From NCBI RefSeq assembly GCF_030252345.1, contig NZ_CP126980.1, positions 8,007,501-8,071,500 of the forward strand: DNA of 64,000 bases. The letters are read 5' to 3'. The notes under the pieces are model-generated. The model ran no database searches, was not told the DNA's origin, and worked only from the letters and a program-made list of their open reading frames with translations. Origin of the DNA: Actinoplanes oblitus. Lineage in GTDB: Bacteria > Actinomycetota > Actinomycetes > Mycobacteriales > Micromonosporaceae. The translations under genes and the position numbers were made by a program. Shown piece by piece: positions 26,700 to 41,824 of this stretch. Position 1 is the stretch's first letter. Each line of letters starts with the position of its first letter.

Positions 26700-26709
26700 C
26701 ATTCAGAAC

Positions 26710-26811
26710 CACGATTTTCTACGCTCTGGGTGTCCCCAGACGCAGCAGCCCTGTCCCGTGGCTGAGCGCGCGGTGATCCCGGTGCCGGGCCGCGGGGCCG
26801 CGCCGGGCTGA
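26710..26811 (+). repeat. Left arm of a long inverted repeat
   Basis: An 18-bp block at 26710-26727 and a 71-bp block at 26741-26811 are found inverted at 27886-27903 and 27801-27871. The 18-bp block is perfect; the 71-bp block has five mismatches and no gaps (about 93% identity). The 13-base spacer between blocks is unrelated. The arms bracket about 1 kb holding one small membrane-protein gene. Confidence 0.9.
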
Positions 26812-26906
26812 ACTCGCCAGGCCGCGCCGGGCACGGGCCGCGGGGCCGCGCCGGGCTGAGCTCGCCAGGCCGCGCCGGGCACGGACCGCGGGGCCGCGCC
26901 GGGCGG
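26789..26906. repeat. Tandem 48-bp GC-rich repeat
   Basis: Two full 48-bp units (26789-26836 and 26837-26884) and a 22-bp partial third start with GCCGCGGGGCCGCGCCGGGC and include TGARCTCGCCAGG. The first unit overlaps the inner end of the left inverted-repeat arm. It lies upstream of the small membrane gene and is not coding on the evidence of composition. Confidence 0.85.
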
Positions 26907-26994: not shown

Positions 26995-27540
26995 ATGAAG
27001 GATCGGCTGTACTTCTCGACGAACCCGTCGCTCGGGGCACGCCTGTTCGACCTGCTCGCGGGGATCTGCTTCCTTCTCCTACCGATCTGCGTATTGGTGG
27101 GTGCGTTCCCCAGCCGGCACGAGCACCGAGGACACCGGAACCACTTCAACGTCGCCGGGCTGCTCATGATGCCGGTCATGTTCACGTTCGGCATCTTCTT
27201 CGTGGTGCGATCGCTGCGTGCCGTGTGCTGGCTGACGGGCTCGACGCTACGGGTCCGCGGGCCACAAGGCGCCCAGTCCGCCGACCTGAGCCGGAGCTAC
27301 CTGCACATCCGGCAGGTCGAGGAAGACGGGCGGGCCGGCGAGCAGGTTCCCTACCTGGTCGCGCGCGACCCGGTGACGGGACATGAGGTGCTGCAATCCC
27401 TCCGGCTGACCGCCGGTGAGCTCGACCGGCTCGCCGGCGCCATTCTCGTCGCCCGCCCGCCGGAGGGCGGCGACCAGGAGGCACACGACGTGGCCGAGGC
27501 GATCCGCCGGCTCGCCCACGACACGGCCTCCCGAACCTGA
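26995..27540 (+). CDS. Small two-helix membrane protein, function unknown
   Basis: This 181-residue protein has two membrane helices: about 19-40 (LLAGICFLLLPICVLVGAF) and about 56-78 (LLMMPVMFTFGIFFVV). A cytoplasmic domain of about 95 residues follows, starting with short beta strands (STLRVRGPQGAQSADLSRS) as in a PH-like module, and ends in an acidic helix. ATG 26995 is preferred, although the RBS is poor; an in-frame GTG at 26962 would add 11 residues. The gene is enclosed by long inverted repeats, suggesting a mobile or recombined cassette, though there is no transposase. Confidence 0.65.
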   Translation: MKDRLYFSTNPSLGARLFDLLAGICFLLLPICVLVGAFPSRHEHRGHRNHFNVAGLLMMPVMFTFGIFFVVRSLRAVCWLTGSTLRVRGPQGAQSADLSRSYLHIRQVEEDGRAGEQVPYLVARDPVTGHEVLQSLRLTAGELDRLAGAILVARPPEGGDQEAHDVAEAIRRLAHDTASRT

Positions 27541-27800
27541 CAACCCCGCCGCACCCTCATCGCCAGGCACGGACACTCGGTCATGCGCCTGCGCCCGCCG
27601 CCGGCAAACGGGTGAACCAGACACGAGGCCGAGCCGAGCCGAGACCGCGCCGCCGGGCCGGGCCGCGAGGCCCGCCGCACTCCGGAAAGTGCCGCGCCTC
27701 CGTCCCCGGCTGGTCCTCACGGTTGTGTCAATGCCTGCGAGACCACCACCAGCACCAGCCAGACCCGGGCTCGCCTGTTCGTCGCGGCGGGGTGGGCAGC
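27541..27800. other. Non-coding stretch with a diverged copy of the 62-bp repeat
   Basis: No gene is supported here. Positions 27738-27771 (CGAGACCACCACCAGCACCA then GCCAGACCCGGGCT) resemble the second half of the 62-bp unit at 16.6 kb, so the two regions share a dispersed repeat family. Confidence 0.45.
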
Positions 27801-27903
27801 TCAGCCCGGCGCGGCCTCGCGGTCCGGCACCGGGATCACCGTGCGCTTAGCCACGGGACCGGGCTGCTGCGGTTGTGGTGGGCCGAGAGCGTAGAAAATC
27901 GTG
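27801..27903 (-). repeat. Right arm of the long inverted repeat
   Basis: This is the inverted counterpart of 26710-26811: the 71-bp block is at 27801-27871 and the 18-bp block at 27886-27903. Just outside, ATCGTGCTCTTGAAGG occurs twice (27898-27913 and 27946-27961) with a looser copy between them, giving short direct repeats at the outer edge. Confidence 0.9.
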
Positions 27904-27964
27904 CTCTTGAAGGTCTGAAAGATCGCGGTTCGGAAAGGGAAGACGATCGTGCTCTTGAAGGGGG

Positions 27965-27999
27965 GCGTGCCCGCGTCCGGCGGGCGGGCGCGGGCACGC
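27965..27999 (-). terminator. Hairpin downstream of the first GH87 gene
   Basis: GCGTGCCCGCG (27965-27975) and CGCGGGCACGC (27989-27999) form a perfect 11-bp stem with a 13-base loop. It lies 12 bp beyond the stop of the GH87 gene on the minus strand and is the probable end of the glucan locus transcript. The tail is not U-rich. Confidence 0.6.
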
Positions 28000-28011
28000 G
28001 ACAGCTAGCGA

Positions 28012-31000
28012 TCAGTTGCGGACAATGGTGAACGTCGAGGTCGGGTTCTCGATGTCCTTGTAGTTGTTGCTCAGGGTGAGGTTGGTGAAGGTGGCCGAGC
28101 CGACCGCCGGGCCCTGGCCGGCCTCCGGCAGCGGGTTGGCCCAGATGCCGTAACCGCTCTTGGCGTCGAAGGCGTCGCCGCTCTTCTGCGCGCCGGTGAT
28201 GGTGACGTTGGTGAAGACCGTGTCCTTGATCGGGTTCACCGGCTGGCCGCCGATGTACTGGGTCTGGAACATGATCCCGGAGTAGGTCGGGTCGACGATG
28301 TCGACGTTGCTGACCCGGATGCCCTGGAACACCTTCGAGGCGCTGAACATCCAGATCGCCGGGAAGACCTGCTGGCCCCAGAAGTGGCCGCCGGCCCGGA
28401 CGACCGAGATGTTGTCGAGCACGGTCGGCGGGCTGGCGCCGAAGCCGTTCATCGGGTAGCCGAAGTCCAGCGAGCTGACCGTGATGCCGGAGTAGCAGAG
28501 CGTGTCCGCGATGTAGATGTTCTTGAACGTGTTCGCGTAGCCGCCGTAGACCGCGATGCCTGCCGCGCGCCAGGTGAGCAGGCTGGTCAGGTTCGAGAAG
28601 GTGTTGTCGATCTCGTCGGACCCGCCGGCGTCGATCGCCGAGAACAGCGCGAAGCTGTCGTCGCCGGTCGCCCGGGACTCGTTGTTGTCGACCAGGTTCC
28701 CGGTGCTGCCGTTGGTCATGTTGACGCCGTCGGCGAAGGTGTCCCGGATCCGCGAATTCTTGATCACCATGTTGTCGGTGTTCGCGCCCCAGTACAGGCA
28801 GACCACGTGCTCGGCCCAGATGTTGTCGATGGTGATCCCGGAGACGTTCGCGAAGTCGAACACCTTGCCGGGACCGTCGATCCGGATCGTGTAGTTGCCC
28901 CAGAACGAGAAGTTGGCGAACGTCGAACCGTTGGCGGTGGCGTCGGCCCGGAAGCCGGCATCCGTCTCGGTCTGCGTCTCCGGGGTGTGGAAGCGGGTGT
29001 ACCAGGGGCCGGCGCCGACGACCTTCAGCGCCTTGCCGTACACCTGGAACTTGTTCGACGTCTGGTAGTCACCGGCGGGCAGGTAGACGCCCACCTTGGT
29101 GCTGTCCTGACGCGCCGTGTCCAGGGCGGCCTGCACCGACTGCTGGTCGAAACCGGTCGGCACCACGTACTTGCTGGCGTCCGGGTTGGCGATCGCGGAG
29201 ACCTGCTCCAGCTGGATGAAGTCGATCGCGATGGAGCCGCTGTTGCCGGCGTCCTTCTGCAGCTTGATGGTGCTGCCGGCCGGGAACGACCCGGTCAGCA
29301 TGAGGTTCGCTTCGTCGTAGATGTGCCGCGGGCCGGAGCCGGAGTTCTGCGGCGCCGTCTCGCTGCCGTACAGCCAGGCGTACTTCGAGGTGAGCGGCAG
29401 GGTCTTGTTGAGCGCGCCGTTGACGTACACGTTGATCGAGCTGGTCGTGCCGTCCGGGATGGAGAAGCGCGCGACAACGGTGTTGGTGGCGTTGCGGGTC
29501 GTCCAGGACACCGACGAGCCGGTCTGGTTCAGCGTGACCGCCTTGCGGCCGGACGCCTCGCCGGCCAGGTCACCGATGGTGCGGTTGGGGCCGACGACCG
29601 CCGCGCCACCGGCGACGGCGCCGTCCTCGGCCTCGTACATGTCGTACGGCATGTTCGCGCCACGGCCGACGAAGAACGGCTTCTCGCCGGTGTTGTTGGC
29701 CTGCTTGACCGGCAGCTCGTTGGTGTCGGCGGCGACCACCGTACGCACGGTGTACTTGCCGTTGACCGCGGTCCAGCCGCCCAGGCTGATCGACGGCGAC
29801 GAGGCGCCGGCGGCCAGGGTGCCGGTGTACGACCCGGTGAACGTCTTGACGGTGGTCGAGCCGTTCAGCACGGTGACCGTCACGCTGTGCGTGCCGCTGC
29901 CGGTGGCCGCGGTGCCCTGGTTCTTCAGGACCGCCGAGAAGCTGACCGTCTGGCCGGCCGACGGGTTGCCGGGCGACCAGGAGACCGCCGAGGCGACCAG
30001 GTCGGAGCTGCTGACCGGGGCGACGACCAGGGTGGCCGGGTTGGTGTAGGAGTTGTTGGCCTCGTTGGTCTCGATCACCGTGTTCGCCTCGTCGACCTTG
30101 GCGGACACGGCGTAGCTGCCCGCGTCCCGGGCCCCGATCGAGGCCGAGACGGTGGTGGACGCGCCGGCCGCGAGGGCGCCGACCGCCGCGGTGCCGGCCT
30201 TCGTCGTGCCGAGGTAGAAGGTGACCGACGACGCGGCCGAGGCGGCGGTGCCCGCGTTGCGGACGGTGGCCGACAGGGTGATCGGGTCGGTCTCCACCGG
30301 CGAGGCCGGCGAGCTGGTCATGCCGGTGATCGTCAGGTCCGGGTTGGCCGCCGGGGTGCCGATCACCTGGAGTTCCGCGACCTGCCCGCTGGGCGCGCCG
30401 GTGTTGGCGGTGAAGGAGAGCCGGACGTCAGCGGTGGTCGCCGAGACCGGGATGGTCACGGTGTTCTGCGAGGCGGGATTGAAGGTGTACGTCGCGGAGC
30501 CCACGAGCGTGGTGTACGCCGACGCCGACTGCTCCCGGCCGAGCACCGAGAACGTCTGCTGCCGGGTACCCCAGTCGGTGCCCGGGTTGAGCTTGACGAC
30601 CACCGAGGAGACCGTCGCGTTGGCACCCAGCTTCACCGTCAGGTCGGCCGGGTACGCGCTGCCCTCCCAGTACGTGGCGGTGTCGTTGTCGTTGGCGTTG
30701 GTGGCGACGAAGGTGAAGACCGTCGACGAGGCCTCGATCGGCTTGCCGACCGCCAGGTTGGTGCCGGTCTGCGGCGCGCCGGTCCGGGTCACCGTGTTGC
30801 TGGCCGCCGACTCGTTCCCGGCGGCGTCCCTCGCCTTCACGTAGTACGAGACGGTCGCCGTGTCGGGCTGGCTGTCGGTGTACGTGGTACCGGTGACGGT
30901 GGTCTTCAGGGTGCCGTTGGCGTACACGTTGTAGCCGGTGACGCCCACGTTGTCGGTGGACGCGCCCCAGCTGAGCCGGATCTGCCCGCCGGCCGGCTGG

Positions 31001-31830
31001 GTGTAGGAGAGGGTGCCCGGCGTGGTGGGCGCCTGGGAGTCGCCGGTCGCGCCGGTCCGGGTCACCGTGTTGCTGTTCCCGGAGACGTTGCCGGCCGCGT
31101 CCTTGGCCCGCACGTAGTAGGAGACCGTCGCCGAGTCCGGCTGGCTGTCGGTGTAGGTCAGCACGTTGCCGGCCACCGAGGTGCGGAGCTGGCCGTTGGC
31201 GTAGATGTCGTAACCGGTCACCCCGACGTTGTCGGTGGACGCGTTCCAGGTCAGCCTGATCTGCCCGCCGGCCGGCTGGGTGTAGGCGAGGTTGCCGGGT
31301 GCGCTGGGCGCCTGGCTGTCCCCGCTGACCGGCCCGTAGAGCTCCAGCTCGGAGAGCTGACCGGCGGGCCACGCGGTGTTGGCGGTGAAGCTCAGCCGGA
31401 CGAACCGGGCGCTGGCCGCGGTGAAGTCCACTGTCACCGTGTTGCCGGACGACGGGTTGAAGGTGTACCCGGCGCTCGCCTTGAGCGTGCTGAACGAGCT
31501 GCCGTCGGTGCTGCCCTGGATGGACAGCGTCTCGGTCCGGGTGTTCCAGGCGGTGGCCGGAGGGAGTTTGAGGACGGCCTGGTTGACCTGGGTGGACGTA
31601 CCGAGGTCGACCTGGAGCCACTGCGGGAAGGCGTTGTTGTTGCTCTCCCAGTAGGTGTTGGCGTTGCCGTCGCCGGCGTTGCCGGCCGGGTAGACGTCGG
31701 TGTAGCCGCTGGCGCTGAAGGCCTTGCCGGCGGCCAGGTTGGGGCCGGCTGCCAGCGCCGCGGGGGCGTGGACGAGTGCGGCGACCACGCTCGCGGCCGC
31801 CGCGGCGGCTATGAGCCTGAATCTGGACAT
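28012..31830 (-). CDS. Secreted multidomain GH87-type alpha-1,3-glucanase/mycodextranase
   Basis: This 1272-residue exported enzyme has a signal peptide (to about residue 28, PAALAAGP). It continues with an F5/8C discoidin domain (about 28-165), two near-identical FN3 domains (about 170-355), a second discoidin domain (360-495), two CARDB-like domains (500-720), a CBM35/CBM6-like module (735-885, starting MYEAEDG) and a right-handed beta-helix (890-1272). In the helix, RDTFADGVNMTNG and ATGDDSFALFS match the GH87 pattern in which the DG and GDD aspartates are catalytic. GH87 enzymes cleave alpha-1,3-glucan or nigeran. ATG 31830 fits the RBS AAGAAAGG and signal peptide better than GTG 31842. 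Confidence 0.85.
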   Translation of the reverse strand: MSRFRLIAAAAAASVVAALVHAPAALAAGPNLAAGKAFSASGYTDVYPAGNAGDGNANTYWESNNNAFPQWLQVDLGTSTQVNQAVLKLPPATAWNTRTETLSIQGSTDGSSFSTLKASAGYTFNPSSGNTVTVDFTAASARFVRLSFTANTAWPAGQLSELELYGPVSGDSQAPSAPGNLAYTQPAGGQIRLTWNASTDNVGVTGYDIYANGQLRTSVAGNVLTYTDSQPDSATVSYYVRAKDAAGNVSGNSNTVTRTGATGDSQAPTTPGTLSYTQPAGGQIRLSWGASTDNVGVTGYNVYANGTLKTTVTGTTYTDSQPDTATVSYYVKARDAAGNESAASNTVTRTGAPQTGTNLAVGKPIEASSTVFTFVATNANDNDTATYWEGSAYPADLTVKLGANATVSSVVVKLNPGTDWGTRQQTFSVLGREQSASAYTTLVGSATYTFNPASQNTVTIPVSATTADVRLSFTANTGAPSGQVAELQVIGTPAANPDLTITGMTSSPASPVETDPITLSATVRNAGTAASAASSVTFYLGTTKAGTAAVGALAAGASTTVSASIGARDAGSYAVSAKVDEANTVIETNEANNSYTNPATLVVAPVSSSDLVASAVSWSPGNPSAGQTVSFSAVLKNQGTAATGSGTHSVTVTVLNGSTTVKTFTGSYTGTLAAGASSPSISLGGWTAVNGKYTVRTVVAADTNELPVKQANNTGEKPFFVGRGANMPYDMYEAEDGAVAGGAAVVGPNRTIGDLAGEASGRKAVTLNQTGSSVSWTTRNATNTVVARFSIPDGTTSSINVYVNGALNKTLPLTSKYAWLYGSETAPQNSGSGPRHIYDEANLMLTGSFPAGSTIKLQKDAGNSGSIAIDFIQLEQVSAIANPDASKYVVPTGFDQQSVQAALDTARQDSTKVGVYLPAGDYQTSNKFQVYGKALKVVGAGPWYTRFHTPETQTETDAGFRADATANGSTFANFSFWGNYTIRIDGPGKVFDFANVSGITIDNIWAEHVVCLYWGANTDNMVIKNSRIRDTFADGVNMTNGSTGNLVDNNESRATGDDSFALFSAIDAGGSDEIDNTFSNLTSLLTWRAAGIAVYGGYANTFKNIYIADTLCYSGITVSSLDFGYPMNGFGASPPTVLDNISVVRAGGHFWGQQVFPAIWMFSASKVFQGIRVSNVDIVDPTYSGIMFQTQYIGGQPVNPIKDTVFTNVTITGAQKSGDAFDAKSGYGIWANPLPEAGQGPAVGSATFTNLTLSNNYKDIENPTSTFTIVRN

Positions 31831-31870
31831 GCGGGAGCGCACCTTTCTTCGGTGAAGGTGTTCAAGGGGA

Positions 31871-31904
31871 CCGCCGGGCGGCCTGGTGGATGGCCGCCCG
31901 GCGG
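31871..31904 (-). terminator. Perfect 13-bp hairpin between the two GH87 genes
   Basis: CCGCCGGGCGGCC (31871-31883) pairs exactly with GGCCGCCCGGCGG (31892-31904) around an 8-base loop. It sits in the 78 bp between the GH87 genes, immediately after the stop of the upstream one. It can reduce read-through or stabilise the 3' end of the upstream message. Confidence 0.7.
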
Positions 31905-31908
31905 CGTC

Positions 31909-34674
31909 TCACGAGGGGTAGGCCTCGATCTCGGAAAGCTGGCCGGCGGGCCAGCCGGTGTTCCCCGTGACGGTGACGCGCAGGTACCGCTGGGTCGCGC
32001 TCACCGGGATGGTGACGGTGTTGCCGCTCGCCGGGTCGAAGGTGTACCCGGCGCTCGCCTTGACGGTGCTGTAGGCCGAGCCGTCGGTGCTGCCCAGGAT
32101 GCTGAGCGTCTCGGTGCGGGTGGCCCAGGCCGTCGTCGGCGGCAGCTTCAGGACGACCCGGCCGAGGGTGCGGTTCTGGCCCAGGTCGACGGTGATCGAC
32201 TGCGGGAAGGCGTTGCTGCCGCTCTCCCAGTAGCTGCTCGCGTTGCCGTCGGTCACGTTGGCCGGGGTGTAGACGTCCGCCTGGCTGGTCGCGGTGGCCG
32301 TTCTCCCGGCCGCGAGGTTGCCGGTGGGCGGCGCGGTGGTGGTCGGCGGCGCGCTGGTCGGCGGCGTGGTGGTGCCACCGCTCGCATACACCTCGAGCTC
32401 GGCGAGCTGCGCCGCGGGCCAGCCCGAGTTGGCCGAGAAGGTCAGCCGGACGTATCGGTGGTTCCCGGTGGTCAGCGCCAGGGTCGCGCTGTTGCCACTG
32501 GCCGGGTCGAGCGTGACCCCGCCGGCACCGGCGAGCGACGTCCAGGAGGACCCGTCGGTGCTTCCGGAGACCGCGACGGTCTCGGTCCGCTTCTCCCAGC
32601 CGGCCGGCAGCTTCAGTACGGCCCTGCCGACGGTCTGCGCCGAGCCCAGGTCCACGGTGTACGTCTGCGGGAACGCGTTGTTGGCGCTCTCCCAGTACGT
32701 CGCCGCGTTGCCGTCGACGGCGTTCGCCGCCACGTAGTTACCGTTCGAGGACGTGGCGGTGACCGGCTTGCCCCGCGCCAGGTTGCCGTTGGACGGCGGC
32801 GGAGTGCTGGAGGTGCTGGGGCCGGGCGTCGGCGACGAGGCCGGCGGGCCAGACGGCGTGGTGGTGCTGTTGCCCCACTTCGGCGCCGGCCACGGCCCGC
32901 AGTACGGCGTCGGTGTCTGCCACCCCGAGTTGCCGCCCGCGTCGGTGATCGCCAGCCCGGAGCCGGTGCAGTTGTAGGTCGGCGGGTTCTGGGCGATCCC
33001 GGTCGCCTTCACGTTCTTGAACGTGGCGGTGGCCGGGGCCTGCGCCTGCAGGGCGAACGTTCCGGCGCCGGCGATGTTGACGTTGGTCAGGTTCAGCCCG
33101 CTGGTGCCGTTGCCGATCCACTGGATCCCGGCGTAGGAGCTGTCCAGGATGTCGGTGTCGGTGACGTTGATGGTGGCCCCGGTGATCGCGCCCTGGTCCG
33201 GCCAGAACCACAGCGCGCCGATGCCGAAGTTCCAGTTGTAGTCGGAGTTGCCGGTCCGGATCAGGGTGTTGCGGGCCAGGGTCCAGGTGCCGGCCACCGC
33301 TGTCGGGCCGGTGACGCCCGGGTACCGGTTGGCGACGTGCAGGCCGCCGCCGTTGGTGACCGTCTCGGCCATCACGTTGTCGCTGATCGTGATGTCCCGG
33401 CCGCCGTAGCTGACGATGTTGTTGGCCAGGATCGGCGCCACCACGGTGTTGTGGGTGAACGCGTTGCCGACGTTCGCGGTGTTCTCCGCCCACATCGCCA
33501 GGCCGTCGTCCCCGGTGTTGCGGACGAACGTGTTGGTAACGGTGGAGTTGGTGACGCCGATGTGGAAGTTCACGCCGTCCGCGGTCTGGTCCAGGATCCG
33601 GCTGTTGCGGATGGTGAAGTTGTCCATCGGGCCGTCCATCCAGGCGCCGACCTTGGTGTGCTGCATCCAGACGTCGTCGACGGTCGAGTTCGACATGGCC
33701 CCGCCAAACGCGTTGACCTGGTCCTCGTCCACCCGCTCCTGGATGTCACCGATGACCGCGAGGTCCTTGACGGTGACGTTCCGGCTCGGACCGCCCTGAC
33801 CCACGTACTTGCCGTAGAGGCCGGCGGCCTGGTTGCGCTGGCTGGGGTGCCGGCCGCCGAGCACGGTGTACCAGGGCCCGGCCCCGGCCAGCGTGACCCT
33901 GTCGACGATCACGTGGCTGTACAGCGTGTAGCTGCCCTGCGGCAGGTAGACCACGCGGCCGGACGCGGCGCCGGCGTCGACCGCGGCCTGGATCCGGGCG
34001 GTGGTGTCGGTGGCGCCGGTCGGATCGGCGCCGTAGTCGGCGACCGCGTCGATGGCGCCGGCCGGCTTGCCGATCGGGCCCGGCACGTTCTCGAAGTCGG
34101 CCAGGTCGATGGTGAAGCTGGGCGACTGCGCGGTCGAGGAGACCTGGATCCGGATCTTGGTGCCGGCCTGGTAGGTGGTCCCGAACAGCGCCCGGGCCTC
34201 GTCGTAGAAGTGGTGCGGGCGGCCGTCACCGGGGTTGTTGGTGAACGGGTAGTACCCGTAGTACCAGCTGTACTTCGAGGTGACCGGCACGCTCTTGATC
34301 AGGGTGGAGCCGGCGCGGAGGTCCAGCGAGCCGCTCCTGCCGTCCGGCACGCTGTACCGGAAGGTGACCGCGTTGGCCGGCTTGGTCAGGGTGAACTCGA
34401 CGTATTCACCCGCGGCGTCGAGGGTGACGGCCTCCCGCCCGGAGGCTTCGGAGGAGAGGGCGCCGTAGGTCCGGTCGGTGCCGGTGGAGGTGCCGTTCGT
34501 CGCGGCCTTCTCGGCCTCGATCTCGGTGAACGGCACCGTGGCGCCCCGTCCGGAGATGTCGAACGGGGAGAGCCCGGCGGCCTGCGCCGGCGTGGAGCTC
34601 CAGGTCACCGCGGTGACCGCGGTGGCCGCGAGGACTGCGGCAAGTGTCGCTATCGGGGCGGTGCGGTTGGCCAT
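31909..34674 (-). CDS. Secreted GH87-type alpha-1,3-glucanase with discoidin tail
   Basis: This 921-residue exported enzyme has a signal peptide ending near PAQAAGL, then a CBM35-like module (about 45-185, FTEIEAEKAATNG). A beta-helix catalytic domain spans about 190-625 and includes DQTADGVNFHIG and RNTGDDGLAMWAE, the GH87-like DG and GDD aspartates. A Pro/Ser/Thr linker follows (about 625-650), then two F5/8C discoidin domains separated by a second Thr/Pro linker. The modules are rearranged relative to the neighbouring GH87, which has its discoidin domains in front. ATG 34674 has AAGGAAGGG 8 bases upstream. Confidence 0.87.
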   Translation of the reverse strand: MANRTAPIATLAAVLAATAVTAVTWSSTPAQAAGLSPFDISGRGATVPFTEIEAEKAATNGTSTGTDRTYGALSSEASGREAVTLDAAGEYVEFTLTKPANAVTFRYSVPDGRSGSLDLRAGSTLIKSVPVTSKYSWYYGYYPFTNNPGDGRPHHFYDEARALFGTTYQAGTKIRIQVSSTAQSPSFTIDLADFENVPGPIGKPAGAIDAVADYGADPTGATDTTARIQAAVDAGAASGRVVYLPQGSYTLYSHVIVDRVTLAGAGPWYTVLGGRHPSQRNQAAGLYGKYVGQGGPSRNVTVKDLAVIGDIQERVDEDQVNAFGGAMSNSTVDDVWMQHTKVGAWMDGPMDNFTIRNSRILDQTADGVNFHIGVTNSTVTNTFVRNTGDDGLAMWAENTANVGNAFTHNTVVAPILANNIVSYGGRDITISDNVMAETVTNGGGLHVANRYPGVTGPTAVAGTWTLARNTLIRTGNSDYNWNFGIGALWFWPDQGAITGATINVTDTDILDSSYAGIQWIGNGTSGLNLTNVNIAGAGTFALQAQAPATATFKNVKATGIAQNPPTYNCTGSGLAITDAGGNSGWQTPTPYCGPWPAPKWGNSTTTPSGPPASSPTPGPSTSSTPPPSNGNLARGKPVTATSSNGNYVAANAVDGNAATYWESANNAFPQTYTVDLGSAQTVGRAVLKLPAGWEKRTETVAVSGSTDGSSWTSLAGAGGVTLDPASGNSATLALTTGNHRYVRLTFSANSGWPAAQLAELEVYASGGTTTPPTSAPPTTTAPPTGNLAAGRTATATSQADVYTPANVTDGNASSYWESGSNAFPQSITVDLGQNRTLGRVVLKLPPTTAWATRTETLSILGSTDGSAYSTVKASAGYTFDPASGNTVTIPVSATQRYLRVTVTGNTGWPAGQLSEIEAYPS

Positions 34675-34729
34675 GGGTCCCTTCCTTGGTGTGGCCAGCC
34701 CCCGTTTTCGGTGGTGTTCCTCCTGCTCG

Positions 34730-34765
34730 GCGGGCGTCTCCGGCGGTGGAACCGGAAACGCCCGC
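34730..34765 (-). terminator. Intercistronic hairpin after the GH13 gene
   Basis: GCGGGCGTCTCCGG (34730-34743) and CCGGAAACGCCCGC (34752-34765) form a 14-bp stem with one mismatch and an 8-base loop. It starts 6 bp after the GH13 stop and precedes the GH87 gene, so it probably attenuates transcription between intracellular and secreted enzymes. Confidence 0.6.
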
Positions 34766-34770
34766 AGCCG

Positions 34771-36321
34771 TCAGAAACGCAGCCAGACCGCGGTGTCCTG
34801 GGGGAGGAGGTCACCGTCGAGAGGGCCGCTGGCGAGCAGGATGGTCTTGTGCTCCGGCATGGGGATGGGAGCGCCGGACAGGTTGAGCACGCAGGCGAAG
34901 TCGTCGCCGCGGGTGTAGGCGAGCACCCCGGCGCCCCGGTCGAGCCAGCTGAACGCGGCCGCGCGGGGGCGCAGCCGGATGGCGGTGCGGTACAGCTCCA
35001 GCATCGAGTTCGGATCGCCGGTCTGCGCCTCGACGGTGCGGTCCTTCCACTCGGCCGGCTGGGGCAGCCACGGTGTGCCGCTGCTGAAGGCGTACGGTGG
35101 CTCGTCGCCGGACCAGGGCAGCGGCACCCGGCAGCCGTCCCGGGTGTGCCCGCGCCGGGCGTACATCGGATCCTGGATCTGCTCCTCGGGGATGTTCTCG
35201 TTCTCCCAGAGTCCGAGTTCCTCGCCCTGGTAGACGTAGGCCGAGCCGGGCAGCGAGAGGGTGAGCAGCGCGGCGGCCCGCGCCCGGCGGGTGCCCAGTT
35301 CCAGGTCGACGGGGGTGCCGTCGAGGTTGTTCTCGAAGCTGAACGTGGTGTCGGCCCGGCCGTAGCGGGTGACGTGCCGGGTGACGTCGTGGTTGGAGAG
35401 CACCCAGGTGGCCGGGGCGCCGACCCCGGCGTGCGCGTCGAGGGTGCGGTCGATGCAGGCCCGCATCAGCTCCGGGTCCCACGCGCAGCCGAGGAAGTCG
35501 AAGTTGAACGCCGCGTGCAGCTCGTCCGGCCGCAGGTAGTTGGTGAAGCGCTCGACGTCGGGCATCCACACCTCGCCGATCAGTGCCCGGTCCTCGTAGT
35601 CGTCGGCCACCCGGCGCCAGGCCCGGTAGACGTCGTGCACCGCGTCCAGGTCGTGGAAGGGGTGCGGCTCACCCTCGACCACCTCGGGCAGCGCGGTGTC
35701 CTTGAACAGCAGCGCCGCCGAGTCGATCCGGATGCCGTCGGCACCCCTGTCGAACCAGAACCGCAGGATGTCCTCGAACTCGGCCTTGACGTCCGGGTGC
35801 TCCCAGTTGAGGTCGGGCTGCTCCGGGGTGAACAGGTGCAGGTACCAGGACCCGTCGGGCGCCTTCGACCAGGTGGTGCCGCCGAACTCCCCGGTCCACC
35901 GGGTGGGCATCCGCTCGGACGGCGGCCGGAACCAGAAGTACTCCCGCTCCGGCGCGTCCGGCGAGGCGATCGCGGCCTGGAACCACGGATGCTCGGCGGA
36001 GATGTGGTTCGGGACGATGTCGACGATCATCCGGATGCCGGCCGCGTGCGCCTCGGCGATCAGCGCCTCGGCGCCGGCCAGGGTGCCGAAGACCGGGTCG
36101 ACGTCGCGGAAGTCCGCCACGTCGTAGCCGGCGTCCGCCATCGGCGAGGGGTACCAGGGACTCATCCAGATCGCGTCCACCCCGAGGTCGCGGAGGTGGC
36201 CCAGGCGCGACCGGATGCCGTCGATGTCACCGACGCCGTCACCGTCGGAGTCGGCGAAACTCCGGGGATACACCTGGTAGATGACCGCGTCGCGCCACCA
36301 CGCACTGTCTTTTGCGGACAC
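34771..36321 (-). CDS. GH13 alpha-glucosidase
   Basis: This 516-residue cytoplasmic GH13 enzyme has catalytic Asp200 (DGIRIDSAALL), Glu250 (LIGEVWMP) and Asp312 (LSNHDVTRH). The residue after the nucleophile is Ser rather than the Val of the 17-kb enzyme, so linkage preference differs, perhaps alpha-1,4 or alpha-1,3 glucosides. There is no signal peptide, so it probably hydrolyses imported oligosaccharides. GTG 36321 starts just before the family's WWRDAVIYQVYPRSF. It follows the permease genes by 72 bp and precedes the GH87 genes. Confidence 0.9.
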   Translation of the reverse strand: MSAKDSAWWRDAVIYQVYPRSFADSDGDGVGDIDGIRSRLGHLRDLGVDAIWMSPWYPSPMADAGYDVADFRDVDPVFGTLAGAEALIAEAHAAGIRMIVDIVPNHISAEHPWFQAAIASPDAPEREYFWFRPPSERMPTRWTGEFGGTTWSKAPDGSWYLHLFTPEQPDLNWEHPDVKAEFEDILRFWFDRGADGIRIDSAALLFKDTALPEVVEGEPHPFHDLDAVHDVYRAWRRVADDYEDRALIGEVWMPDVERFTNYLRPDELHAAFNFDFLGCAWDPELMRACIDRTLDAHAGVGAPATWVLSNHDVTRHVTRYGRADTTFSFENNLDGTPVDLELGTRRARAAALLTLSLPGSAYVYQGEELGLWENENIPEEQIQDPMYARRGHTRDGCRVPLPWSGDEPPYAFSSGTPWLPQPAEWKDRTVEAQTGDPNSMLELYRTAIRLRPRAAAFSWLDRGAGVLAYTRGDDFACVLNLSGAPIPMPEHKTILLASGPLDGDLLPQDTAVWLRF

Positions 36322-36393
36322 GAAAACTCGCTTTCTGCGTTTATTGCGGCATTTTTCGCCCGGATACTGGGCACTGAGAGGCGGCGACGCTGC

Positions 36394-37281
36394 TCAGCCC
36401 TTGACGCTGCCCGCGGTCAGGCCGGACATGATGTTCCGCTGGAAGATCAGAAAGATGATCACGGTGGGGATGGCCGCGATCACCGAGGCGGCGATCACCT
36501 CGTTCACCGACGAGCCGCCGGAGAAGGCCACGATGCCGACGCTCACCGTCCGGGTGGAGCCGTCCGGCATGACCAGCTTCGGCCAGAGGAAGTCCTTCCA
36601 GACGTACGTCACCGAGAAGATCGAGACGACGCCGAGGATCGGGCGCGACATCGGCAGGATGATCGACCAGAGCGTGCGCAGCGGGCCGGCCCCGTCCACC
36701 TGGGCGGCCGACATCAGGTCCTCCGGGATGGAGTCGAAGAACCGCTTCAACAGGAAGATGTTGAAGGCGTTGGCGACCAGCGGCAGCCAGATCGCGAGCG
36801 GCTGGTTGATCAGGCTGGCGTGCACGATCGGCAGGTCGATCACCGTCACGTACTGCGGGACGATCAGGACGATCACCGGGATCATCAGGGTGGCCAGCAT
36901 CGCGCCGAGGACCACGTTGCCCAGGACCGGGCGCAGCTTCGACAGCGAGTACGCCGCGGCGGTGTCGAACACCAGCTGGAACAGGACCGCGCCGATCGCG
37001 TAGTAGAACGTGTTGAACAGCAGCTTGGAGAGGTTGAGGTTGCTCCAGGCGTTGGTGTAGTTGCTGACGTCCGGGTGCCGCGGCCACAGCGTCGGCGGGG
37101 TCTGCGCGATCTCCTGGCCGGTCTTGAGCGCGCCGGTGACCATCCAGTACAGCGGGCCGATGAACACCAGGGTGAAGCCGGCCACGACCAGGCCCAGCAA
37201 CGTCCAGTAGAGGTACTTGCCCTTGCCGCGTCGCAGCTGGGCCTGCGAGACGAGCGTACGGGTGCCGGAATTGTGCGACAT
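36394..37281 (-). CDS. Carbohydrate ABC transporter permease, MalG type
   Basis: This 295-residue inner-membrane permease has six predicted helices and the EAA loop (EDLMSAAQVDGAGPLRTLWS) that docks the ATPase. It forms the second half of a heterodimeric sugar importer with the permease just upstream; 9 bp separate them. No ATPase gene is adjacent; actinobacterial CUT1 importers commonly share an MsiK-type ATPase encoded elsewhere. Confidence 0.92.
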   Translation of the reverse strand: MSHNSGTRTLVSQAQLRRGKGKYLYWTLLGLVVAGFTLVFIGPLYWMVTGALKTGQEIAQTPPTLWPRHPDVSNYTNAWSNLNLSKLLFNTFYYAIGAVLFQLVFDTAAAYSLSKLRPVLGNVVLGAMLATLMIPVIVLIVPQYVTVIDLPIVHASLINQPLAIWLPLVANAFNIFLLKRFFDSIPEDLMSAAQVDGAGPLRTLWSIILPMSRPILGVVSIFSVTYVWKDFLWPKLVMPDGSTRTVSVGIVAFSGGSSVNEVIAASVIAAIPTVIIFLIFQRNIMSGLTAGSVKG

Positions 37282-37290
37282 GGTCCGTCC

Positions 37291-38238
37291 TCAGTCGTTC
37301 TTCGTGGTGAGCCGCAGGTAGACACCCGAGAAGGCGGCCAGCGCCACGAGGATGATCACTCCGAGCGCCGCGGCGCCGTTGAGGTCGTTCTGATAGAAGC
37401 CGTGCTGATAGATCAGGTACGCCACGGTGGTCGCCGAGTCCTGCGTGCCGGCGCCGTTGGCGAGGATCAGCGGCTCGATGAAGACCTGCATGGTGGCGAC
37501 GATCTGCATCATGGCGAGCAGGCCGAGGATCAGCCTGGTCTGCGGGATGGTCACGTTCCAGATCCGTCGCCAGAGCCCGGCGCCGTCCAGCTCGGCCGCC
37601 TCGTACAGCTCGCCCGGGATGTTCTGCAGCGAGGCCAGGTAGATCAGCACGGCGCTGCCCATGTTCATCCACGTGGAGGCGATCACCATGGCCGGCATCG
37701 TCGCGCCCGGCGACTGCATCCACTGCGAGGTGGGCAGGTGCAGGAACGTGAGGATCGCGTTGAACAGGCCGGCGTCGCTCGGGTCGTACGCGTAGAACTT
37801 GAAGAGGAAGAGCGCCGAGGCCGGCGGCAGCATCACCGGCAGGTACACCAGGACGCGCAGGTAACCCTTGGCGTGCCGCAGCTCGTTGAGCAGGATCGCG
37901 ACGAAGAACGGGACCGCGTACCCGATGACCAGGGCCAGCACGGTGAAGTAGACGGTGTTGCGCCAGGCCGGCCAGAAGCTCGGGTCGGCGATGATCCGGG
38001 TGTAGTTGTCCCAGCCGACCCAGGTGGTCACACCGCGCCTGGTCCGCTGGAAGCTCATGATGATCCCGCGGATCATCGGGTACCAGGTGAAGAGGGCGAA
38101 GCAGAGGATCGCGCCGATCAGGAAGGCGTACCCGGTGACGTTGTCGCGGATCTTGCGGTTGCGCCGCCCACGGCTCCGGGCGGGCGAGGCGCTGCGTGTC
38201 AACTGTTCGGTCGTGCCCGGGGCGGTCATGGTCGCCAA
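37291..38238 (-). CDS. Carbohydrate ABC transporter permease, MalF type
   Basis: This roughly 315-residue permease has a basic cytoplasmic N-terminus (RSRGRRNRKIRDN), about six helices and the EAA loop GELYEAAELDGAGLWRRIWN. It pairs with the MalG-like permease. Start choice is uncertain: TTG 38238 has AGGAG at an ideal 7 bases, whereas ATG 38229 (MTAPGTTEQ) has no well-placed RBS but is the usual form of such N-termini. It follows the binding-protein gene by 68 bp. Confidence 0.9.
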   Translation of the reverse strand: MATMTAPGTTEQLTRSASPARSRGRRNRKIRDNVTGYAFLIGAILCFALFTWYPMIRGIIMSFQRTRRGVTTWVGWDNYTRIIADPSFWPAWRNTVYFTVLALVIGYAVPFFVAILLNELRHAKGYLRVLVYLPVMLPPASALFLFKFYAYDPSDAGLFNAILTFLHLPTSQWMQSPGATMPAMVIASTWMNMGSAVLIYLASLQNIPGELYEAAELDGAGLWRRIWNVTIPQTRLILGLLAMMQIVATMQVFIEPLILANGAGTQDSATTVAYLIYQHGFYQNDLNGAAALGVIILVALAAFSGVYLRLTTKND

Positions 38239-38306
38239 CGGAAAACTCCTGCGATGAGTCGGAAGGGTGCGGACCGGTCGGCGACCGGCCCGCACTCCTC
38301 GCGGGA

Positions 38307-39686
38307 TCAGCTACCGGCGGTGATCAGCTGGTTGACCTTCTGCTCCGCGGTCTTGAGGAGCTCGTCGATGTTGGCGTTCGGGTTGGTCAGCACCCCGGAC
38401 ATCGCCGAGTCGAGCACCGCGTAGATCGCCTGGGCGTTGGCGGGCTCTCCCTTGATCGGCAGCTGCTGGTTCTCGAACAGCGCGTAGATCGACGGGTCGA
38501 CGTTCGCGTTCGCCTTGCGCAGCTCGTACTCCGCCTTGGCGGTGGCGCTGTCCTTGGTGAACAGCAGCGGCTGCGGCAGGCCCACCGGGTAGTTCTGCGG
38601 CTTGGCCCGCGGGTAGTCGAACTGGCCCTTGCCGACCGTGAGTTTCTCGAAGGCGACCCACTTGAGGCCGGCCTTGACCTGCGCCTCGGTCAGGCCCTTC
38701 TTGAAGAAGTAGCCGTCGCCGCCACCGAGGGTGGCCTTCGCCAGGCCGTCCTGGCCGGGGAGCGGGGCGACCGCCCAGTCCGCGTACTTGCCCTTGAACT
38801 GGGAGACGATCTGCTGGGTGGTGTCCGGCGCGCCGATGAACATGCCGACCTTGCCGGCCGCCGCGTTGGTCAGCAGGTCACCCCACTGGAGCAGCTGACG
38901 CGAGCCCATCGAGTTGTCGCCGTACCGCATGTCCTTGAGGTTCTGCAGGACCTGCTTGCCCATCGCGTTGTTGAAGTCGGCCTTCTTGCCGTCCTCGGTG
39001 AGGATCTGGCCGCCCTGCGCGTAGATCTCGGCGGTGAAGTGCCAGCCACCGGTGTTGCCGGCGCTGTAGTCGGCGTAGCCGGCGACGCCCGGGGCGGCCT
39101 GGGCGATCTTCTTGGCCGCGGTGCGGACGTCGGCCCAGGTCTTCGGCGGGTTCGCCGGGTCCAGGCCGGCCTTTTGGAACAGGACCTTGTTGTAGACCAG
39201 GCCCATCGAGTAGTTCTTGATCGGCACGCCGTAGACCTTGCCGCCGTCGGAGAAGACCGACTTGAGCGCCGGGTCGACGTCATCCCAGGTGGGGATGGTG
39301 TCCTTGGTGACGTAGGACGTGATGTCCATGGCCTGACCGGAGTCCAGCACCTGCTGCAGGTCGGTCATGTAGCCGTAGAAGACGTCGGTGGTGGTGCCAC
39401 CCGCCAGCCGGGCGGTGAAGTCCGGCGGGTTGTTGCACTGGGTGCCGACGCTGACGCTCTTGATCTGGACGTCCGGGTTCGCCTTCTCGAACGCGGCGAC
39501 GTCGGCGTTCCAGTTCGCCACCAGCTCCTTCTCGGTGCCGACCGGCATGCAGTCGACCGTGATGATCGTCTTGCCGTCGGCGCTGGTGCTCTCGTCGTCG
39601 CTCTTCGTGGAGCACGCCGCGAGGCTGAGTCCCAGGCCGGCCGCGAGCGCGAACGCCACGGCCTTCCGGTACTGCGGTGCGGACAT
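38307..39686 (-). CDS. Extracellular sugar-binding lipoprotein of ABC importer
   Basis: This 459-residue solute-binding protein of the CUT1 family has a lipoprotein signal with lipobox LSLAAC (Cys around residue 25). The mature part contains GGTTTDVFYGYMTDLQQV, YGVPIKNYSMGLVYNK and PPKTWADVRTAAKKIA, typical SBP_bac_1 features. In this locus it would capture alpha-glucan oligosaccharides released by the GH87 enzymes. ATG 39686 gives a normal signal peptide; an upstream in-frame ATG would add ten polar residues. It is the first gene of the transport operon and has a good promoter candidate about 100 bp upstream. Confidence 0.92.
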   Translation of the reverse strand: MSAPQYRKAVAFALAAGLGLSLAACSTKSDDESTSADGKTIITVDCMPVGTEKELVANWNADVAAFEKANPDVQIKSVSVGTQCNNPPDFTARLAGGTTTDVFYGYMTDLQQVLDSGQAMDITSYVTKDTIPTWDDVDPALKSVFSDGGKVYGVPIKNYSMGLVYNKVLFQKAGLDPANPPKTWADVRTAAKKIAQAAPGVAGYADYSAGNTGGWHFTAEIYAQGGQILTEDGKKADFNNAMGKQVLQNLKDMRYGDNSMGSRQLLQWGDLLTNAAAGKVGMFIGAPDTTQQIVSQFKGKYADWAVAPLPGQDGLAKATLGGGDGYFFKKGLTEAQVKAGLKWVAFEKLTVGKGQFDYPRAKPQNYPVGLPQPLLFTKDSATAKAEYELRKANANVDPSIYALFENQQLPIKGEPANAQAIYAVLDSAMSGVLTNPNANIDELLKTAEQKVNQLITAGS

Positions 39687-39785
39687 CTGTCCATCCCTTC
39701 GGGAACGGTTATCCATGTGTTCGCTTCAAGTGCGAGGTGATCGATGCGTGGGGGCTCACAGGCAGTCATCTCTGTGAGTGGAGTC

Positions 39786-39814
39786 ACCGTAGCGAGGCAC
39801 TCCGATTTCCGCAA
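39786..39814 (-). promoter_or_regulatory. Promoter of the sugar ABC operon
   Basis: On the minus strand TTGCGG (39809-39814) and TACGGT (39786-39791) are separated by exactly 17 bases, a good match to the housekeeping -35/-10 pattern of actinobacteria. A GAAACC/GGAAATC pair flanks the -35 box and CTTG-containing half-sites occur nearby, so the LacI protein may bind here. The transcription start would fall near 39780, about 95 bases before the binding-protein ATG. Confidence 0.5.
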
Positions 39815-39921
39815 GGTTTCGATCGTGACGTGAAAAGAAGCGACTTTGACATGGCAGATGTTGACAGCCCCAGCTCAGGCGTCGGTATGCCCGGCTTGGG
39901 AACCACCGGGGGCATGAAAAG

Positions 39922-39956
39922 ACGGCTGCCGACCGCAAGGTGCGGTCGGCAGCCGT
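39922..39956 (-). terminator. Strong intrinsic terminator of the lacI-type gene
   Basis: ACGGCTGCCGACCGC (39922-39936) and GCGGTCGGCAGCCGT (39942-39956) form a perfect 15-bp stem with a 5-base loop. On the minus strand it is followed by CTTTTC, a short U-tract. It lies about 70 bp beyond the stop of the LacI-type gene and insulates the ABC operon promoter from it. Confidence 0.85.
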
Positions 39957-40024
39957 TCTGAGGTTGCGTTCGGTTGTCAAAACTTGCAGCGCTGAACCGG
40001 ACGCCCGAGCGGCGCTGCAGTGGA

Positions 40025-41020
40025 TCAGCGCGGGGCGGGCCCGGTGGAGCCGCGGACCACCAGCTCCGGCTCGAAGAGCAGCTCGTCGCGGAGCACGCCG
40101 GCCTCCTCGATCTGCGTGACCAGCAGGTCGACGGCCGACTGGCCCATCGTCTCGATCGGCTGGCGCACCGTGGTCAGCGGCGGGTCGGTGCAGGTCATGA
40201 ACGCCGAGTCGTCGAAGCCGACCACCGAGACGTCGGCCGGGACGGCGCGCCCCAGCCGCCGCGCCGCCCGGATCGTGCCGAGCGCCATCACGTCGCTGGC
40301 GCAGATGATGCCCGTCGCGCCGCGCTCGATCAGCTTGGCGGCGGCCACCCGGGCGCCCTCCATCGAGAAGCTGGAGCGCTCCACCCATGTGTCGTCCGAC
40401 CAGCCGGCCGCCTGGATCATCGCGGCGAGCTTGCGGCGGGACGGGATGTGCCCCTCCGGGCCGAGCACCATGCCGATCCGCTCGTGGCCGAGCGAGCGCA
40501 GGTGCCCGTACGCCTGCTCGACCGCCACCGCGTCGTCGGTCGACACCCGGGGGAAGCCCAGCTCGTCGACCCCCGCGTTGACCAGCACCACCGGCAGTCC
40601 ACGGTCGGTGAGCCGGCGATAGTGCTCGTGCGAGGCGTCGGCCAGGGCGTACGACCCGCCCGCGAAGATCACGCCGGAGACCTGGTGGTCGAGCAGCATC
40701 TCCACGTAGTCCGACTCGGGGACGCCGCCGATGGTCCGGGCGCACAGCGCCGGGGTGAAGCCGCGCTGGGCCAGCGAGGCGGTCACCACCTCGGCGAGCG
40801 CCGGGAAGATCGGGTTCTGCAGCTCGGGGAGCACCAGGCCGACCAGCCGGCCGCGCTCGCCCCGCAGTTTGGTGGGGCGTTCGTATCCCAGGACATCGAG
40901 GGCGGTGAGGACCGATGCCCGGGTGGCCTCGGAGACGCCGCTGCGCCCGTTGAGCACCCGGCTGACGGTCGCCTCGCTGACCCCGGCCTTTTTCGCCACC
41001 TCGGCAAGACGTTTGGTCAC
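40025..41020 (-). CDS. LacI family transcriptional regulator
   Basis: This 331-residue regulator has a LacI HTH at residues 4-50 (LAEVAKKAGVSEATVSRVLN) and hinge helix, then a periplasmic-binding-protein-like effector domain (LVGLVLPELQNPIFPALAEV, ICASDVMALGTIRAARRLG, TTVRQPIETMGQSAVDLL). It is expected to repress the adjacent sugar uptake and glucanase genes until an oligosaccharide binds. GTG 41020 is used. CTTG and CAAG half-sites in its own upstream region (41036-41070) suggest autoregulation. Confidence 0.92.
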   Translation of the reverse strand: MTKRLAEVAKKAGVSEATVSRVLNGRSGVSEATRASVLTALDVLGYERPTKLRGERGRLVGLVLPELQNPIFPALAEVVTASLAQRGFTPALCARTIGGVPESDYVEMLLDHQVSGVIFAGGSYALADASHEHYRRLTDRGLPVVLVNAGVDELGFPRVSTDDAVAVEQAYGHLRSLGHERIGMVLGPEGHIPSRRKLAAMIQAAGWSDDTWVERSSFSMEGARVAAAKLIERGATGIICASDVMALGTIRAARRLGRAVPADVSVVGFDDSAFMTCTDPPLTTVRQPIETMGQSAVDLLVTQIEEAGVLRDELLFEPELVVRGSTGPAPR

Positions 41021-41175
41021 GACGGAATCCTACGTCAAGTCATTGCAAGAACTGAACCGGCGCTTGCGGTCGATTCTGGAATCGATGACAGTGCTTGCCG
41101 GTCTTCCGTGACGCTTCTTTTAAGTTTCCGCCATGTTTCACCGGCGGTGACCGAGCGGCGGCGGTCCGGCCGGGA

Positions 41176-41317: not shown

Positions 41318-41824
41318 ATGACCGACTGGGATCAGAACGACAGCTGGTCGTCCGGGGGCGCCCAGGAGGACTGGTCGGCGCAGGACCGGCAGCGCGACTC
41401 GGTGCAGCGGCTGGCCAACGTGAGCAACGACATGGCCACCGCCACCCAGGCCGCCGTACACGCCGCCGAGACCGCGGTGCAGGTGATCCAGCGGCTGGAG
41501 GCGAGCAGCACCGAGATCGGCAAGGTGGTCCAGCTGATCGCCACCATCGCCAAGCAGACCAACCTGCTCGCGCTGAACGCCACCATCGAGGCGGCCCGCG
41601 CCGGCGAGGCGGGACGCGGCTTCGCCGTGGTGGCCAGCGAGGTCAAGGACCTGGCCAACGAGACCGCCACCGCGACCAGTGAGATCGGCACCCAGGTCGG
41701 CGGGATCCGGACGGACACCCAGAACGCGGTCTCCGCCATCGAGGAGATGCAGGGCCTGATCGAGGAACTGGACCGCTGCCAGAAGGTGATCAGCGGGATC
41801 GTGGTGGAGCAGCAAGCCGGCTGA
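41318..41824 (+). CDS. Minimal soluble methyl-accepting chemotaxis signalling protein
   Basis: This 168-residue protein is almost only an MCP signalling domain. The hairpin tip ([20 protein letters not shown] then [20 protein letters not shown]), which contacts CheA/CheW, is at about residues 75-115, flanked by short coiled-coil arms. There is no membrane helix, HAMP domain or sensory domain, and the N-terminal 25 residues are Trp/Asp/Ser-rich and probably disordered. RBS AGAGAGGG precedes ATG 41318. It may act as an adaptor or decoy in chemosensory arrays, or in a non-motility pathway. Confidence 0.88.

Follow-up and report, generated by a model that had tools for sequence, protein, structure and literature searches.

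Which polymer is served by a gene cluster that places two beta-helix glycoside hydrolases beside a sugar importer, an alpha-glucosidase-like enzyme and a regulator? The cluster in question occupies positions 28012-41020, minus strand, of a 64,000-nucleotide stretch of the Actinoplanes oblitus genome (contig NZ_CP126980.1 of 9.81 Mb, positions 8,007,501 to 8,071,500; this whole stretch is hereafter the window). We think, with a probability of roughly 0.8, that it is a dedicated operon with which this Micromonosporaceae soil actinobacterium utilises alpha-1,3-glucan. This reading is based on the membership of both beta-helix proteins in family GH87 with intact catalytic aspartates, on a conserved gene order, and on synteny of the module with a near-copy of a known mutanase. 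The seven open reading frames (ORFs), transcribed in the order lacI, solute-binding protein (SBP), permease F, permease G, GH13, GH87-A and GH87-B, lie where a preliminary description made from the letters alone had placed them. Its assignment of two secreted GH87-type proteins, a GH13 enzyme, two permeases, an SBP and a LacI regulator, all on the minus strand, agrees with the ORF positions and with Pfam:

40025..41020, minus strand: lacI-family regulator of 331 residues with a GTG start (Pfam LacI and Peripla_BP_3)
38307..39716, minus strand: lipoprotein SBP (SBP_bac_1, Pfam 113.6 bits; nearest solved chain 7bvt, E 7e-22)
37291..38295, minus strand: permease F, CUT1-type, MalF/UgpA-like (BPD_transp_1; UgpA/MalF-type NCBIfam matches below cut-off)
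36394..37281, minus strand: permease G, CUT1-type, MalG/UgpE-like (BPD_transp_1; UgpE/MalG-type NCBIfam matches below cut-off)
34771..36321, minus strand: GH13 alpha-glucosidase-like enzyme (Pfam Alpha-amylase, 341 bits; nearest solved chains 8yif/8yie)
31909..34674, minus strand: GH87-A, CatAgl D1 and D2 followed by two C-terminal F5/8 type C domains (Pfam; match to 7c7d)
28012..31842, minus strand: GH87-B, F5/8 type C, FnIII-like and CARDB domains N-terminal to CatAgl D1 and D2 (Pfam; match to 6k0m)

By their Pfam domains and catalytic aspartates, both beta-helix proteins are confirmed members of GH87. CatAgl_D1 and CatAgl_D2 score above the Pfam cut-offs in GH87-A (149.3 and 73.9 bits) as well as in GH87-B (226.5 and 391 bits), and no different polysaccharide family was matched, which bears out the family proposed in the preliminary description. 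A reading of the beta-helices as pectinases was rejected, as the Pect-lyase_RHGA_epim match of GH87-A (59.7 bits) is outdone by CatAgl D1 (149 bits) and by the solved alpha-1,3-glucanases. Indeed, every solved relative of the two catalytic regions is named an alpha-1,3-glucanase. The best match of GH87-B is 6k0m (E 1.2e-131, 43% identity), which we take to be Agl-FH1, just as 5zru is presumably Agl-KA; that of GH87-A is 7c7d, Agl-ST (E 1.3e-118, 43% identity). Agl-ST is described as a mutanase from Streptomyces thermodiastaticus HF3-3 (PMC11475409), and for Agl-FH1 from Paenibacillus glycanilyticus FH11 the catalytic residues are reported as D1045, D1068 and D1069 (PMC10696023). Motif and alignment show all three aspartates to be kept in GH87-A (366/389/390) and GH87-B (1038/1061/1062). 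In a survey of 225 GH87 domains (209 distinct), the first catalytic aspartate stands 22 residues ahead of the GDD motif in 224 of the 224 domains that hold it, and the single domain without GDD is a broken or cut frame. Both enzymes are probably secreted, as expected for the family and as suggested by signal peptides which, like the lipobox (LAAC) of the SBP, were judged by eye and not with a prediction tool. The name FnIII-like for one domain of GH87-B is our assumption from a match to the chitinase A1 chain 1k85. In a tree of 45 catalytic domains, GH87-B groups with Agl-FH1 (100/100), and the Agl-ST type (100/100), a third type (100/100) and GH87-A (100/99) form further groups; GH87-A and GH87-B thereby clearly belong to distinct clades.

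As far as gene neighbourhoods can tell, the strongest new evidence that adds support to alpha-1,3-glucan as the substrate is synteny with Agl-ST itself. In one class-level relative (locus L139, genome G272), a lacI-SBP-F-G-GH13 module precedes a GH87 gene whose product is identical to 7c7d in 574 of 576 residues; as this near-copy of Agl-ST stands behind the module, the module is tied to an enzyme with measured alpha-1,3-glucan activity. The same order is found in L140, L141, L144, L146 and L150, which carry the family code of L139 and encode GH87 proteins 79 to 84% identical to 7c7d (79 to 99.7% across all six loci). Those of L140, L141 and L144 join the Agl-ST clade in the tree at 100/100. 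Judging from the enzyme match, the six genomes are presumably Streptomyces. Together with the GH87 profiles, this synteny lends support to the system for degrading and importing alpha-1,3-glucan that the preliminary description had proposed. Mutan is reported to support the growth of Streptomyces isolates as their only carbon source, and the portions of that report available to us mention no such locus (PMC11475409).

The cluster is conserved well beyond its source. When named genomes were scanned with an alignment built from GH87-A relatives, 386 stretches were confirmed, and in the best 80 the gene order was determined by tblastn with the genes of the window. Because this set consists of the nearest relatives, the shares given for it are not population figures. 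The full order lacI-SBP-F-G-GH13-GH87-A-GH87-B is present in 46 of them, and in three more the same order meets a contig end before GH87-B. All five module genes occur in a different order or on a different strand in 18 others (17 Streptosporangiaceae and one Kitasatospora), L015 shows only the two GH87 genes (with a contig end on that side), and L073 has a single LacI match of 32%. The layout of a Gram-positive polysaccharide utilisation locus, with depolymerase, importer, glycosidase and regulator, is kept together in the 46 loci of full order, secretion and cellular place being judged by eye. A class-level sample of 197 genomes was approached from the importer: 33 of them, the source among them, encode a relative of the SBP (E 1e-60 or better), and the stretches examined were those of the 17 best SBP matches besides the source and of three of the 15 weaker ones. 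All 17 stretches around the strong matches have an adjacent GH13 gene, 16 have a LacI gene and 14 have a GH87 gene. A GH87 gene is found in all 18 genomes with a strong SBP (source included) versus 16 of the 179 others (Fisher p 1.6e-16, a value that ignores kinship).

A CUT1 importer comprises an SBP and two different permeases, and the cluster encodes an SBP_bac_1 protein and two BPD_transp_1 proteins; the regulator joins a LacI helix-turn-helix to a sugar-binding domain (Pfam LacI and Peripla_BP_3). None of the seven cluster genes encodes an ATPase, as the earlier suggestion of a shared MsiK-type ATPase implies, and three proteins with the MalK-type OB domain (PF17912), encoded elsewhere in the source genome, are candidates for this role. 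The true start of the SBP is likely at 39686, since GAAGGGATGGACAGATG ahead of the inner ATG is conserved. The GH13 enzyme, which is probably cytoplasmic as no signal peptide is seen by eye, has 8yif and 8yie as nearest solved chains, both titled 'Alpha-glucosidase' (E 7.5e-130 and 1.4e-129); these structures contain acarviosin and acarbose (PMC12567066).

From family knowledge, the following pathway can be proposed. The two GH87 enzymes, which belong to different clades, would be secreted, bind the glucan and cut insoluble alpha-1,3-glucan from fungal walls or mutan, and their products would be short nigero-oligosaccharides. Import of these would fall to the lipoprotein SBP with the two CUT1 permeases, for which the shared MalK/MsiK-type ATPase encoded elsewhere would supply the power; the cytoplasmic GH13 enzyme would hydrolyse them to glucose, and the LacI protein would repress the system until it binds an oligosaccharide. 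The substrate may be alpha-1,3-glucan, nigeran or a mixed fungal alpha-1,3/1,4-glucan.

Several observations weigh against a dedicated alpha-1,3-glucan operon. GH13 enzymes are mostly active on alpha-1,4 and alpha-1,6 bonds, and none of the solved relatives of the locus GH13 is shown here as nigerose-active. The junction of GH87-A, the Agl-ST type and the third type in the tree is poorly supported (80/44) and came with a long-branch warning from the program. For 11 of the 80 GH87-A relatives, the flanks of about 10 kb contain no gene of the module, and of the 19 family-level stretches around GH87-B relatives, 13 lack both GH87-A and GH13 within about 10 kb; the GH87 enzymes are therefore also found apart from the operon. 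A nearby GH87 is missing from three of the 17 strong SBP stretches (L137, L138 and L147; a contig end truncates L147, and L138 has no lacI either) and from all three weaker ones, two of which hold GH13 (59-60%) and LacI (64-65%) relatives. These SBP stretches without GH87 could mean that the cluster is a general importer of alpha-glucans or of malto- or isomalto-oligosaccharides, that the GH87 genes are carried along and that their products are not the main substrate, the more so as SBP and GH13 resemble general alpha-glucoside proteins and the nearest solved SBP, 7bvt, has cyclic maltosyl-maltose as its ligand (PMC7676653). We consider this unlikely in view of the GH87 genes in every genome with a strong SBP, their adjacency in 14 of 17 stretches and the retention of two GH87 genes in the 46 loci of full order. 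An alternative depolymerase was looked for near L137, L138, L153, L154 and L155, with no glycoside hydrolase among 10 selected ORFs. In L154 and L155, which belong to other families, lacI and GH13 precede the SBP, no GH87 is nearby and a GH87 gene is found elsewhere in both genomes (G277 and G214), an arrangement that possibly reflects regulation at a distance. Less probable still is that the cluster chiefly serves antagonism, that is, attack on living fungi or loosening of biofilms, with uptake as a mere by-product. Both GH87 proteins do carry several binding-type added domains, and a GH87 enzyme is reported to have hydrolysed the wall alpha-1,3-glucan of Aspergillus oryzae (PMC10696023), but the conservation of importer, GH13 and regulator with the enzymes is the design of a feeding system.

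A further proposal is a narrower form of the alpha-1,3-glucan reading and not its opposite. GH87-A would be a mycodextranase (EC 3.2.1.61) that acts on the alpha-1,4 bonds of nigeran or mixed alpha-1,3/1,4-glucan, GH87-B would act on alpha-1,3 runs, and GH13 would handle alpha-1,4-containing or nigerose-type pieces, so that the locus would harvest mixed fungal-wall alpha-glucans. The label 'mycodextranase' (NCBI or UniRef) is borne by 12 of 120 listed relatives of GH87-A versus none of 120 listed for the catalytic part of GH87-B, where the listing could reach only proteins of about 306-975 residues. Alpha-1,4 bonds would suit GH13 as a partner, GH87-A and GH87-B stand in separate clades, and a cluster of actinomycete mycodextranases apart from the bacillar alpha-1,3-glucanases has been reported among characterised GH87 enzymes (PMC10696023). 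However, the labels are propagated names, the sequence of the J-13-3 mycodextranase is absent among the matches listed, and the Agl-ST-type enzyme, which takes the equivalent place in related loci, is a mutanase. We regard the proposal as possible, with the odds somewhat against it.

If the enzymes and the regulator have stayed together, the same does not seem to hold for the importer. Averaged over seven loci of the Nucisporomicrobium type (Nucisporomicrobium, Mangrovihabitans, two of Amorphoplanes, Winogradskya, Symbioplanes and Pseudosporangium), the SBP is 46% and the permeases are 51 and 52% identical to the source, with lacI at 83, GH13 at 79, GH87-A at 78 and GH87-B at 83%. The corresponding values for seven Micromonospora loci are 78-80% for the importer, 69-71% for GH13 and GH87, and 90% for lacI. 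The SBP tree, which carries a long-branch warning, sets Actinoplanes, Paractinoplanes and Micromonospora (100/99) apart from the Nucisporomicrobium group with L126 (100/100); the lacI tree joins Paractinoplanes to the Nucisporomicrobium group (99/97). The simplest reading is that the importer trio between lacI and GH13 has apparently been replaced in place in one lineage; alternatively, the difference may reflect the loss of one of two old copies. The region concerned corresponds to 36394-39716, and the loci are L009-L012, L018, L047, L049 and L126. GH87-B may have an exchange history of its own: in the Nucisporomicrobium group (L009-L011) it is 74-76% identical to the copy of a class-level genome (L143) versus 65-68% to three Micromonospora copies. 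Joined with the two-bond scheme, importer replacement gives a yet more tentative picture of a two-linkage harvester of fungal-wall alpha-glucan with a swappable importer, in which GH87-B would open alpha-1,3 runs, GH87-A would open alpha-1,4 links (nigeran or spacers) and the importer trio would have been replaced in one lineage. Regulator and enzymes would then keep their job, and the importer would shift to another length or type of oligosaccharide.

The regulation of the proposed alpha-1,3-glucan operon can be approached from its conserved non-coding features, with z-scores from RNA folding against 200 shuffles per region:

41027..41051, minus strand: putative lacI promoter and candidate operator block (TTCTTGCAATGAC-TTGACG-TAGGAT), proposed from conservation
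39786..39814, minus strand: promoter-like block before SBP (TTGCGG - 17 nt - TACGGT), its role likewise proposed from conservation
39922..39956, minus strand: intrinsic terminator 3' of lacI, 16-pair stem and T-run (folding z -6.67; terminator scan)
34725..34768, minus strand: hairpin between GH13 and GH87-A (folding z -3.70)
31870..31905, minus strand: hairpin between GH87-A and GH87-B (folding z -5.77)
27965..27999, minus strand: weak hairpin after GH87-B, possibly the end of the unit (folding z -2.83)

A simple scan for the sigma-70 consensus found no promoters (0.7 expected), and statements on promoters therefore rest on conservation. The block before lacI, of the type TTGCA(A)-spacer-TGACGTA, is kept with variants in Actinoplanes and Micromonospora relatives; as its -10-like TAGGAT lies only six bases ahead of the GTG start, the lacI message may be leaderless. 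The CTTGC element of the SBP block occurs in 21 of 21 Micromonosporaceae upstream regions (window included), followed by a downstream element in two versions, and the block was not seen in five upstream regions from other families. Motif searches scored 21.05 bits before lacI (26 regions; 11.8 and 11.5 in shuffled sets) and 29.8 before SBP (21 regions; 13.8 and 13.9 shuffled), part of these scores being plain kinship among the aligned regions, and no single shared operator emerged from the two conserved blocks. The perfect inverted repeat TCGATTC-CA-GAATCGA before lacI (41070-41085) was discarded as an operator candidate, as it is not kept in aligned relatives. Hairpins between the enzyme genes, as noted in the preliminary description, were recovered by folding. 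The terminator scan found a T-run only at the hairpin after lacI and did not call the inter-enzyme hairpins terminators. Where relatives share this gene order, the 110 bases after GH87-A contain a perfect stem of 10 pairs or longer in 30 of 48 cases, and those after GH13 in 22 of 49, with 0.25 and 0.45 expected from mononucleotide shuffles. The role of these hairpins may be to adjust or protect portions of the transcript.

Within the source genome, three GH87 genes are found, namely GH87-A, whose closest named relative among the matches listed is an Actinoplanes octamycinicus protein of 90% identity, GH87-B, and a third one at 485684-486574. The third gene (L116:9195-11189) lies outside the cluster and adjoins a CHASE3/HAMP chemotaxis-receptor gene, and the surrounding 20 kb yielded no importer, GH13 or lacI of the cluster type. 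Beside the cluster, 20 of the 80 loci have an additional GH87 that is 38-42% identical to GH87-A (10 in Micromonospora, 10 in Microbispora and Planotetraspora); three of these were put in the tree, and all three group with the third GH87 of the source genome. Divergent from lacI lies an ORF of 168 residues (41318-41824, plus strand) whose sole Pfam match is a methyl-accepting chemotaxis protein (MCP) signalling domain and which may represent a receptor that is soluble or broken. A dispersed repeat of about 100 bases has two copies immediately downstream of the locus (26695-26825, plus strand; 27780-27960, minus strand); a 181-base query of it gave at least 27 genome matches, itself included, and at least 11 of the rest have an E-value of 3e-16 or better. 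Shortly 3' of GH87-B, within 27500-28000, the word ttcaagagcacgat is present twice.

In some fungi, alpha-1,3-glucan is a structural polymer of the wall, and it is also a component of dental-plaque biofilm. The locus connects the known enzyme Agl-ST to a likely physiological setting and supplies a pair of GH87 enzymes from two clades, which may work jointly. Being compact, conserved and equipped with an importer and a regulator of its own, the operon makes the uptake and sensing of the glucan directly testable. The preliminary description knew of no described locus that pairs two GH87 enzymes with an importer and a regulator. For actinomycetes, no description of the operon was found among the open-licence PubMed Central papers listed by the searches, which is not proof of absence; the statement has to be qualified for Lachnoclostridium phytofermentans, whose nigerose cluster Cphy_1874 to Cphy_1877 is described with GH65, GH31, an ABC importer, LacI regulators and a nearby putative GH87 (PMC9061262). 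In what is reported of it, this cluster is the nearest published layout found: it shares with our locus the ABC transporter, LacI-family regulators, alpha-1,3-active enzymes, a GH87 nearby and a Gram-positive host, but it has a GH65 nigerose phosphorylase and a GH31 enzyme in place of GH13, one putative GH87 nearby instead of two inside the locus, and it belongs to the Firmicutes and not to the actinomycetes. Agl-ST (PDB 7C7D) is likewise a GH87 enzyme, and its near-identical gene stands behind the same module, but it falls in a separate clade and is 43% identical to GH87-A and 31% to GH87-B. Agl-FH1 resembles GH87-B in its catalytic domain (43% identity) and its conserved aspartates; it comes from another host phylum, and the comparison is limited to its catalytic unit. 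A predicted GH87/GH97/GH99 locus of Prevotella melaninogenica also brings together a regulator, uptake proteins and GH87 for a mutan-type glucan, but as a Bacteroidota system it has a TonB-dependent transporter and a SusD-like protein; its authors state in 2026 that they knew of no experimentally characterised GH87-containing utilisation locus (PMC13421300). The cmm cluster of Arthrobacter globiformis, which is reported to serve a single defined glucan oligosaccharide, resembles the proposed system in its extracellular enzyme, its SBP with two permeases and its intracellular alpha-glucosidase, whereas its substrate is cyclic maltosyl-maltose from starch and its enzymes are GH13 (PMC7676653). 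The general type, a Gram-positive glucan utilisation locus, is thus already known, and this actinomycete form is a variant of it.

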